Below are positions 1 through 41,940 of a stretch of DNA of 44,461 nucleotides, piece by piece. The translations under genes were made by a program, and so were the position numbers. Within the stretch, counting starts at the first letter, position 1; each line of letters begins with the position of its first letter. The DNA lies in NCBI GenBank assembly GCA_015272205.1, contig JACYMB010000168.1:1-44461 (forward strand), in the 5' to 3' direction. The notes beneath the pieces were generated by a model. It was not told where the DNA came from and made no database searches. It saw only the letters and a list, made by a program, of their open reading frames with translations. The DNA comes from Synechococcales cyanobacterium T60_A2020_003 (lineage in GTDB: Bacteria; Cyanobacteriota; Cyanobacteriia; RECH01).

Positions 1-479
1 TACTTAAATTCAATCAGCTTGGGATCACCCATGATGTGGGGATTTGCGCCTTGCTCGAAGGGCAATTGAATATTGAGGCCAAAGGACTTCTCTGCCCCGG
101 CACCTTCATTGCCCGCCTCCATGATGCCCCCGCCTGCCCCGGTCATCACCATGAATCCCTGAGCCGTAATACAGCGAGCAAAGTCCACGGCCATCTGGTA
201 TTCCGGGTTGGAGGCCGAAATTCGGGCGGAACCGAAAATGGTCACTTTACGGACATGGCGATAGGGATAAAACACCCGAAAGGCTCGCTCCATATCCTGT
301 AGAGCCGCACTCAGGATTTTCCAATCCAGGCGATCGGCTTCGACTTCTGCCATACCAACCAACACGGAGAGCGCCCGCTGGATCAGCTCACTGTGGGGCA
401 TCCCTGGCAATTGATCCAGTAAATGGTTAACCTCATTACGCAGAGCCGCTAGATTAGAAGAAGAGGTTGATGGAACCAT
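1..479 (-). CDS. LOG family / TIGR00730-type Rossmann-fold protein (5' part only)
   Basis: The gene reads leftward from an ATG at 479 and leaves the window at base 1, so only the first 159 residues are visible. The N-terminal half is helical. A Rossmann start follows (VTIFGSARI, near residue 80), then the nucleotide-binding segment MTGAGGGIMEAGNEGA near residue 112. This pattern is typical of the LOG (Lonely guy, once called lysine decarboxylase-like) family, which includes cytokinin-activating nucleoside-monophosphate phosphoribohydrolases. The diagnostic PGGxGTxxE motif would lie beyond the edge, so activity cannot be judged. The gene lies downstream of trxA on the same strand, about 230 bp away. 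I am confident of the family and not of the substrate. Confidence 0.82.
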   Translation of the reverse strand, partial: MVPSTSSSNLAALRNEVNHLLDQLPGMPHSELIQRALSVLVGMAEVEADRLDWKILSAALQDMERAFRVFYPYRHVRKVTIFGSARISASNPEYQMAVDFARCITAQGFMVMTGAGGGIMEAGNEGAGAEKSFGLNIQLPFEQGANPHIMGDPKLIEFK

Positions 480-706: not shown

Positions 707-1030
707 CTAGAGATACTTTTCCAGCGTATTGGCGAGAGTCATCTTTGGCACAGCACCCACAACCATATCGACACGCTGACCACCTTTAAAAATCATCAGA
801 GTGGGAATGCTACGAATGCCGTACTGGCTCGCCACGGCTGGATTTTCATCGGTGTTAACCTTAACAACTTTAACTTGACCCGAATATTGCTCAGAGATTT
901 CGTCAACGACAGGAGCAACCATTCGGCAAGGACCACACCACGGTGCCCAAAAATCGACCAGAACAGGGAGCTCGCTCTCAAGAACTTCTTGCTTGAAGGT
1001 GGAGTCTGTAACTTGCGCGGCTTCTGACAT
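707..1030 (-). CDS. trxA: Thioredoxin (m-type, TrxA)
   Basis: A 107-residue protein, the usual length for bacterial and plastid m-type thioredoxin. The redox motif WCGPC is at residues 31-35 and the conserved cis-proline (SIPT) is at residue 76. It reduces disulfides in cytosolic targets, in cyanobacteria with electrons from ferredoxin-thioredoxin reductase. Light-regulated targets include Calvin-cycle enzymes and glucose-6-phosphate dehydrogenase; a zwf gene is encoded at 9.7-11.3 kb in this window. The Yfr1 small RNA gene lies 250 bp upstream on the same strand, an arrangement reported in other cyanobacteria. A GC-rich inverted repeat (GAGGAGG/CCTCCTC, 629-647) lies downstream but lacks a T-run. 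Confidence 0.97.
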
Positions 1031-1280: not shown

Positions 1281-1349
1281 AGAAACGCCTGAACAATATG
1301 TCCAGGCGGAGTGTGGTGTGAGGAGTGAACGGAAACATTTGTCTCCGCC
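1281..1349 (-). ncRNA. yfr1: Yfr1 small regulatory RNA
   Basis: Read on the minus strand, the segment has the full Yfr1 layout. A 5' hairpin comes first (7-bp stem, 1330-1336 with 1341-1347, 4-nt loop). A single-stranded stretch follows, containing the near-invariant Yfr1 core CACTCCTCACAC (1316-1327). It ends in a terminator hairpin (CGCCTG/CAGGCG, 1286-1291 with 1303-1308) and a short T-rich tail. The predicted length is about 69 nt, within the usual Yfr1 range. A perfect TATAAT box sits 6-7 nt upstream of the assumed start near 1349. Yfr1 is known as an Hfq-independent antisense regulator of outer-membrane protein mRNAs in Prochlorococcus and is commonly found next to trxA, as here. The ends are inferred and have not been mapped. 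Confidence 0.9.
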
Positions 1350-1355
1350 ATCTTT

Positions 1356-1361
1356 ATTATA
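1356..1361 (-). promoter_or_regulatory. -10 box of the Yfr1 promoter
   Basis: On the minus strand the sequence is exactly TATAAT, 6-7 nt before the first G of the predicted Yfr1 transcript. No good -35 hexamer is visible 17 nt upstream, where the bases read AACTAT. Confidence 0.7.
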
Positions 1362-1445: not shown

Positions 1446-2525
1446 CTAGGCGATCACAGACGCTTCCGGTTTCGCGAAAATCATGCGCCCTGCCGAGGTC
1501 TGCAACGACCCTGTAACCACCACTGCAAGCTCATCTCCAACGTAATCACTCGCCTCTTCGACCACCACCATCGTGCCGTCATTGAGGTAGCCGATTCCCT
1601 GGGTGGGTTCCTTGCCAGGTTTGAGAATCTTAATATCGATGCTATCTCCCGGTGCATAGTTTGGCCTGACCGCCTGAGCGAGATCGTTAACGTTTAAGAC
1701 CGTCACTTTCTGAAGACTGGCAACTTTGTTGAGGTTGAAATCATTGGTCAGCAGCGTACCGTTAATTTCCTGCGCTAGCCGCACCAATTTGGCATCCACC
1801 GTCGCGATATCGTCGTAATCCGCCGGGTGAATCACAATCCGTTCTGGATGGGTCGCCTGAATCCGATTGAGGATATCTAACCCGCGCCGCCCCCGAATCC
1901 GCTTTTGATCATTGGAGGCATCGGCCACCCGCTGAAGTTCGAGCAGCACAAACTGGGGAACCAAAACCTGACCCTCAATAAAGCCCGTATCCAGCAGATC
2001 CTCAATCCGTCCATCAATGATGCAGCTTGTATCGAGAATTTTCGTCGTTGCCGGACGGAGCGTTCCCTCCGCAATCAGCATAGACTCGACGCTGTGGGGA
2101 TTAATCAACCGCAGGAGCGTCCGTCCGTGGGTGTCAGCTAAGTTGATGCCGGAGAAAGCAAAGATCAAACTCGCGAGAACAGCCGTTAGAGGTTTGATAA
2201 AGGCAAAATCGTCGGGAATGGGGAGCAAAAACAGGGGAGCCAGCATTAAGTTTGCGATCAAAAGCCCCAAGACCAAGCCCACCGATCGCCCCAAGAGGAT
2301 ATCAACAGGCATCTCCCGAATTTGTCGCTGAATTCTGCGATAGCCTGCTTGGGCCACCAAGCCAATAGCAAACCCGATTAATCCGCCAAAACCAGCAATC
2401 ACAACACTCAACCCTTCCAAGTTGCTGACTTGGCGAAGGGCATCATCTGGAAGCAGATCAACGCTGTAAAAGCCTATCCCTACCCCTGCTAGAATGAAGG
2501 ACAAAACTATGATGGCATCAAGCAT
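1446..2525 (-). CDS. PIN-TRAM domain integral membrane protein (YacL-like)
   Basis: The N-terminal third holds about four hydrophobic helices. A PIN nuclease domain follows, with acidic residues in ILDTSCIIDGR and LLTNDFNLN (residues about 165-290 counted from the preferred start). A C-terminal TRAM domain follows (PGDSIDIKIL through MVVVEEASDYVGDE). This order matches the YacL/MMRN-type PIN-TRAM ATPase-like membrane proteins found across cyanobacteria and Gram-positives, where an RNase role is presumed. The frame opens at a GTG at 2540, but the ATG at 2525 (MLDAIIVLSF) starts directly at the first membrane helix and is preferred, giving 359 residues. The gene is divergent from hemW across about 285 bp. 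Confidence 0.88.
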   Translation of the reverse strand: MLDAIIVLSFILAGVGIGFYSVDLLPDDALRQVSNLEGLSVVIAGFGGLIGFAIGLVAQAGYRRIQRQIREMPVDILLGRSVGLVLGLLIANLMLAPLFLLPIPDDFAFIKPLTAVLASLIFAFSGINLADTHGRTLLRLINPHSVESMLIAEGTLRPATTKILDTSCIIDGRIEDLLDTGFIEGQVLVPQFVLLELQRVADASNDQKRIRGRRGLDILNRIQATHPERIVIHPADYDDIATVDAKLVRLAQEINGTLLTNDFNLNKVASLQKVTVLNVNDLAQAVRPNYAPGDSIDIKILKPGKEPTQGIGYLNDGTMVVVEEASDYVGDELAVVVTGSLQTSAGRMIFAKPEASVIA

Positions 2526-2810
2526 AGTGGCACTCTGCACTGGGATGTATATGTATTGCGTTCCCGCACTTGGACAAATAACACTGATGCATCAGCGACT
2601 TTGCAACTTAGGGCGGGATTGTTCAGATATTAGCTTTGATGTCGTCAAATTGACACCGTTCGCTTCTTTAAATCCACAGTCCAAAGGCTGAAATTGTCGA
2701 TAAGTGGGGATGATATCTGCAATAAAACTTAGCTTTACATCATCATTATATCCTCCCAGTCAAAATAGCTTTGGAACTGTGCTGAACTTAAACTGGCAGG
2801 GCGATCGCCC

Positions 2811-4097
2811 ATGATTTCGTTATCGAGCACCTTTAAAGGCAATTCTCCAAACGAGCGCACCTATCCGCCCTCACCCACGGCAGCCTATCTCCACATTCCC
2901 TTTTGCCGCCGTCGCTGCTACTACTGCGATTTTCCGATTGTGGTCGTGGGCGATCGCCCGCCCCTAGCGCGTCAAGGTCAGCCATCCTACGGTGTGATTG
3001 ACCAGTATCTTCCCGTACTTCAGCAGGAAATTCGAGCCACGCCCTCCCTCGGCACACCGCTGAAAACCGTTTTCTTTGGGGGTGGTACACCTTCGTTACT
3101 GACGGCTGAACAACTCAAGGCATTAATGGACACTCTGGATCACCAGTTTGGTCTAGAACCAGATGCGGAATGCTCCATCGAAATTGACCCAGATACGATC
3201 AAACCGCAGCAACTAGCGGGATACATTGATGCAGGTATTAACCGAATTAGCCTGGGTGTACAAGCCTTTCAGCCGAAACTCCTCGCCGCCTGCGGACGCA
3301 CCCACAGCCCCGACGATATTGACGTGGCCGTAGGGCTAATTCGGCAGATGGGTGTGACCAATCTCAGCTTGGATCTGATTTCCGGCTTGCCCAATCAAAC
3401 GATGGATCAGTGGATTGAGAGTTTAGAACGGGCGATCGCCCTAGAACCGACCCATATTTCAGTCTATGACCTAATCGTGGAACCCATGACCGCCTTTGCC
3501 CGCTGGTACGAACCAGGACAGTCGCCTCTTCCATCGGACGAACTGACCGCCGAGATGTACCGCACCACCTCAAATCTTCTGGCGCAGGCAGGCTTTGAGC
3601 ATTACGAAATTTCCAACTATGCCAAACCGGGCTACCCGTGCCAGCACAATCGCGTGTATTGGGAAAACCGCCCCTATTACGGATTCGGCCTGGGAGCCGC
3701 CAGCTTTATCCACGGGCACCGGTTCACCCGTCCCCGCAAGCGACAAGCGTATGAGGAATGGGTGCAAGGTTTGACTGAAACGCGTGTCATACAACAGGTT
3801 CAGACCATGGGCGATCGCCTGTTGGATACGCTCATGCTGGGACTACGACTGGCAGAAGGGATAGATCTAACCGTAATCGCAGCAGACTTTGGCGACGCAA
3901 TCCTGAATCGCCTGCTATCCGTAGTCGCTCCGTTTCAAGAGCAGGGATGGGTCGCGGTGGATGCCCCAAAGGAGGGAAAAGAAGCCCAGGCGCAACATCT
4001 CCGACTCACTGATCCAGAGGGTTTTCTCTTCTCGAACGTTGTCCTAAGCACCCTGTTCGAGGCGTTTATGGATGAGGATTCGGTTTTGCGTGCCTAG
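2811..4097 (+). CDS. hemW: Radical SAM heme chaperone HemW
   Basis: A 428-residue protein with the radical SAM iron-sulfur motif HIPFCRRRCYYCDF (Cys32, Cys36, Cys39), the glycine-rich GGGTPSLL near residue 90, and the NLSLDLISGLPNQT and HYEISNYAKPG segments typical of the HemN/HemW superfamily. The F after the CxxxCxxC triad and the lack of HemN's N-terminal extension favour HemW, which inserts heme into respiratory proteins, over a true oxygen-independent coproporphyrinogen oxidase. A short insertion after the cysteine motif makes it slightly longer than the bacterial norm. Its TAG stop shares the palindromic CTAG at 4094-4097 with the stop of the convergent lipoprotein gene. Confidence 0.9.
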   Translation: MISLSSTFKGNSPNERTYPPSPTAAYLHIPFCRRRCYYCDFPIVVVGDRPPLARQGQPSYGVIDQYLPVLQQEIRATPSLGTPLKTVFFGGGTPSLLTAEQLKALMDTLDHQFGLEPDAECSIEIDPDTIKPQQLAGYIDAGINRISLGVQAFQPKLLAACGRTHSPDDIDVAVGLIRQMGVTNLSLDLISGLPNQTMDQWIESLERAIALEPTHISVYDLIVEPMTAFARWYEPGQSPLPSDELTAEMYRTTSNLLAQAGFEHYEISNYAKPGYPCQHNRVYWENRPYYGFGLGAASFIHGHRFTRPRKRQAYEEWVQGLTETRVIQQVQTMGDRLLDTLMLGLRLAEGIDLTVIAADFGDAILNRLLSVVAPFQEQGWVAVDAPKEGKEAQAQHLRLTDPEGFLFSNVVLSTLFEAFMDEDSVLRA

Positions 4098-41866: not shown

Positions 41867-41940
41867 CGGGATGTAGCGCAGCTTGGTAGCGCACTTCGTT
41901 CGGGACGAAGGGGCCGCAGGTTCGAATCCTGTCATCCCGA
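41867..41940 (+). tRNA. tRNA-Pro (anticodon CGG)
   Basis: 74 nt folding as a complete cloverleaf. The 7-bp acceptor stem is CGGGATG/CATCCCG with discriminator A. The D arm is GCGC..GCGC. The anticodon stem CTTCG/CGAAG carries loop TTCGGGA, so the anticodon is CGG. The T arm contains GGTTCGAATCC. CCA is not encoded. It reads proline CCG codons. Confidence 0.97.

Follow-up and report, generated by a model that had tools for sequence, protein, structure and literature searches.

An ordinary Yfr1 small RNA gene between a PIN-TRAM protein gene and trxA in a Synechococcales cyanobacterium

Positions 1281–1361 of the window, by which we mean the whole 44,461-nucleotide stretch that was analysed, hold a genuine and ordinary copy of the gene for Yfr1, a known, nearly universal cyanobacterial small RNA. 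The segment comprises the Yfr1 RNA together with its −10 box, on the minus strand. A search with Rfam cmscan gave a full-length match to the Yfr1 family (RF01116) at 1348–1284, spanning model positions 1–59, with a score of 59.5 bits (gathering score 38). Yfr1 is single-copy, with one match in the whole 4.02-Mb genome. The sequence-only reading had annotated the segment as a Yfr1 gene and had named this covariance model as the check; the model match, along with the fold, the core, the position of the −10 box and the synteny with trxA, confirms that the annotation is correct. Of the 390 genomes searched across the class, 373 have a Yfr1 gene, in line with a 2007 survey that reported it in 31 of 33 (PMC2190773). 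The window copy is thus an unremarkable example of an established family, and with it one further genome joins those known to carry this near-universal cyanobacterial small RNA. The features of the locus, all on the minus strand, are as follows.

707–1030, minus strand: trxA, thioredoxin, downstream of Yfr1 (Pfam PF00085, Thioredoxin, 7.6e-36)
1284–1348, minus strand: Yfr1 small RNA (RF01116), full model length (59.5 bits, E = 2e-9)
1286–1308, minus strand: 3′ hairpin with a short T-rich tail, a likely intrinsic terminator (terminator scan and fold)
1315–1327, minus strand: unpaired conserved core region, with ACTCCTCACAC at 1326–1316 (genome pattern search)
1329–1348, minus strand: 5′ hairpin of Yfr1 (fold and Rfam structure line)
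1356–1361, minus strand: −10 box TATAAT (sequence; TANAAT at this position in 67 of 74 loci)
1446–2540, minus strand: PIN-TRAM protein gene, upstream of Yfr1 in the usual place of guaB (Pfam PIN 9e-10, TRAM 5.2e-5)

Folded alone, 1349–1281 forms two hairpins and leaves the core unpaired, with an energy of −26.3 kcal/mol (z = −5.1) that none of 200 dinucleotide shuffles equalled. Read from the window sequence and this fold, the unpaired ACUCCUCACAC core lies between the two hairpins. The same two helices appear in an alignment of 24 diverse loci, with changes on both sides that keep the pairing at 10 of the 15 pairs. The wider comparison covered 104 Yfr1 loci, 30 from picocyanobacteria and 74 from outside the picocyanobacterial family (f2). 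All were picked by the inner 10-mer ACTCCTCACA, and the 12-mer CACTCCTCACAC that surrounds it is invariant in 104 of 104. The earlier description gave a near-invariant 12-nt core with a hairpin on each flank; the literature gives the core as 11 nt (PMC2190773). The window element shares its two hairpins and unpaired ACUCCUCACAC core with Yfr1 of Nostoc PCC 7120 and Prochlorococcus MED4, and is likewise similar to them in its length of about 65 nt, its −10 box and the presence of trxA downstream. Yfr10-type RNAs also have the core motif in common with Yfr1 (PMC6778093), but they lack its conserved structure and synteny, both of which the window element has.

The perfect −10 box reported on the strand of trxA is present as TATAAT at 1361–1356. 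Among the 74 loci outside the picocyanobacteria, 67 carry a TANAAT hexamer about 35 nt before the core, in the forms TACAAT (44), TAGAAT (13), TATAAT (6) and TAAAAT (4). The position of the −10 box is therefore conserved, whereas TATAAT itself is a local variant, most relatives having TACAAT or TAGAAT. No −10/−35 pair passed the promoter scan at Yfr1, and a −35 hexamer was not found there. The 3′ hairpin, followed by the tail TTTCTT, passes the terminator scan and is the sole terminator-like site within 1000–1500; its T-tail is short and weak. By eye, both a weak T-tail and a missing −35 hexamer are common among the other Yfr1 loci.

Upstream, the window differs from known Yfr1 loci in having the PIN-TRAM gene and not guaB. 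As the sequence-only reading had it, guaB is the common neighbour: it lies upstream of Yfr1 in 72 of the 104 loci and is missing from that place in 32, and it was the neighbour in 25 of the 31 genomes of the published survey (PMC2190773). All 30 picocyanobacterial loci keep both guaB and trxA. The PIN-TRAM gene adjoins Yfr1 in a single locus of the 104, that of the window. The matches listed for the PIN-TRAM protein across the genome collection are mostly from Bacillota, and no Yfr1 core was found near the PIN-TRAM gene in the four cyanobacterial loci among them.

An arrangement seen once, in a fragmented assembly of 403 contigs and in no other genome compared, could reflect an assembly join, with some other gene as the true neighbour. 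We consider this unlikely, as the genome's single PIN-TRAM gene is the window gene itself (2540–1446), guaB is located on another contig (C386), and guaB is likewise missing beside Yfr1 in the sister genus, where a different gene stands in its place. This suggests that the site is naturally labile. The gene of the sister genus, which lies upstream of Yfr1 in the other three genomes of the family, encodes a glutathione-reductase-like oxidoreductase, a name given from sequence alone. Other upstream genes resemble those for LigA, TypA, a RelA/SpoT-like protein, MnmG and others, as judged from translations without a domain search. With such a variety of genes in this place, the upstream neighbour of Yfr1 is evidently labile, and the 2007 table already includes trpE, ligA, pcrA and hypothetical genes upstream (PMC2190773). 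The replacement of guaB by the PIN-TRAM gene, to which the sequence-only reading drew attention, is real, but it carries little of the significance implied for it, since a different gene is frequently found in this place, even among members of one family; we regard it as a minor point of synteny. Yfr1, its −10 position and, usually, trxA stay in place, while the gene upstream of them is exchanged freely.

Taken as a single Yfr1 gene, the locus almost certainly has its own promoter and should yield an RNA of about 65–69 nt, whose core would pair with target mRNAs and which would be titrated by Yfr2. Transcription directed by TATAAT at 1361–1356 would start near 1348–1349 and end at the 3′ hairpin. 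The unpaired CACUCCUCACAC core would then pair with the ribosome-binding regions of mRNAs, mostly from cell-envelope and peptidoglycan genes, and this pairing would mostly repress translation, while Yfr2-type RNAs with a complementary motif may titrate Yfr1. The scheme draws on work in Nostoc, in which the Yfr1 core pairs with the start regions of cell-envelope mRNAs, murC and mraY among them, with repression as the usual outcome (PMC6974561), and in Prochlorococcus, in which binding by Yfr2 prevents Yfr1 from pairing (PMC6778093). By analogy with these organisms, expression, pairing and repression by Yfr1 probably take place here as well, and the mechanism is likely the known one.

Two Yfr2-like (Cyano-1) sequences are present in the genome, with scores of 36.8 and 35.7 bits, both below the Rfam cut-off of 41 bits; Cyano-1 (RF01701) is the family that we take to be Yfr2. 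They contain GTGAGGAGTGAA and GTGTGAGGAGCGAA, are complementary to the Yfr1 core over 10–12 nt, and give duplex energies of −21.8 and −24.9 kcal/mol with the Yfr1 linker. All duplex energies were computed with this unpaired linker only; those for the whole RNA were discarded because the hairpin strands dominate the score. The complementary sites considered elsewhere in the genome are listed below.

L004:50–128 and L005:1501–1568: Yfr2-like RNAs (Cyano-1), each with a motif that complements the core of Yfr1
L197:1492–1510 (G000:C128, near 31762): murE ribosome-binding site, complementary to the Yfr1 core over 10 nt without mismatch
L003:1501–1511 (G000:C295:13597): site 4 nt ahead of the GTG start codon of a HAD-family phosphatase gene, complementary to the Yfr1 core over 11 nt without mismatch

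By count, the motif GTGTGAGGAG is not enriched in the genome: it has four occurrences, and its reversed control has three. It contains the ribosome-binding-site-like GAGGAG, so some chance matches before genes are to be expected. Of its four sites, one is on the strand facing the Yfr1 gene and one falls within a Yfr2-like RNA; the other two are the murE ribosome-binding site and the site before the GTG start of the phosphatase gene. We predict from sequence complementarity that murE, a peptidoglycan synthesis gene identified from sequence and homologues, is a Yfr1 target. Its start region scores −19.2 kcal/mol with the Yfr1 linker, the best of 42 start regions (mean −9.3, s.d. 4.0). The sister genus has the motif TGTGAGGA at murE too, as do some but not all members of families f25, f24, f27 and f15; many other families lack it there. 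Direct repression of murE by Yfr1, through covering of the ribosome-binding site in this lineage and several neighbouring families, is a possibility that we put forward tentatively. murE was not found among the published Yfr1 targets named in the main texts of the articles consulted. The predicted site offers a testable addition to the known Yfr1 cell-wall regulon.

Two further readings of these sites were rejected. The HAD-family phosphatase does not qualify as a conserved Yfr1 target, the site being missing in relatives. The second ACTCCTCACAC of the genome (C295:13597) is not an evident Yfr10-like RNA, as its opposite strand is a ribosome-binding site located 4 nt ahead of the GTG start codon.

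A role in cis, with the element serving as a leader or terminator in the trxA 5′ UTR between the PIN-TRAM gene and trxA and not as a free RNA, would fit its place 254 nt ahead of the trxA start codon, on the same strand as that gene, and the presence of trxA downstream in 88 of the 104 loci. Such a role is nevertheless very improbable given the conserved −10 position and terminator-like 3′ hairpin of its own, the 16 of 104 loci in which trxA was undetected downstream, the free RNAs of 54–69 nt shown for other Yfr1 members (PMC2190773) and the poor pairing of the Yfr1 linker with the trxA start region (−10.2 against the mean of −9.3).

On the 3′ side of trxA, a reading frame at 1–479 (minus strand) runs off the start of the window and appears by eye to encode a LOG-type protein; a gene similar to it also adjoins trxA in one of the other loci (L071). 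On the opposite side, the PIN-TRAM gene and a HemN/HemW-like radical SAM gene at 2811–4097 (plus strand) point away from each other. Apart from Yfr1, Rfam matched the window only at a tRNA gene, 41867–41940 (plus strand).
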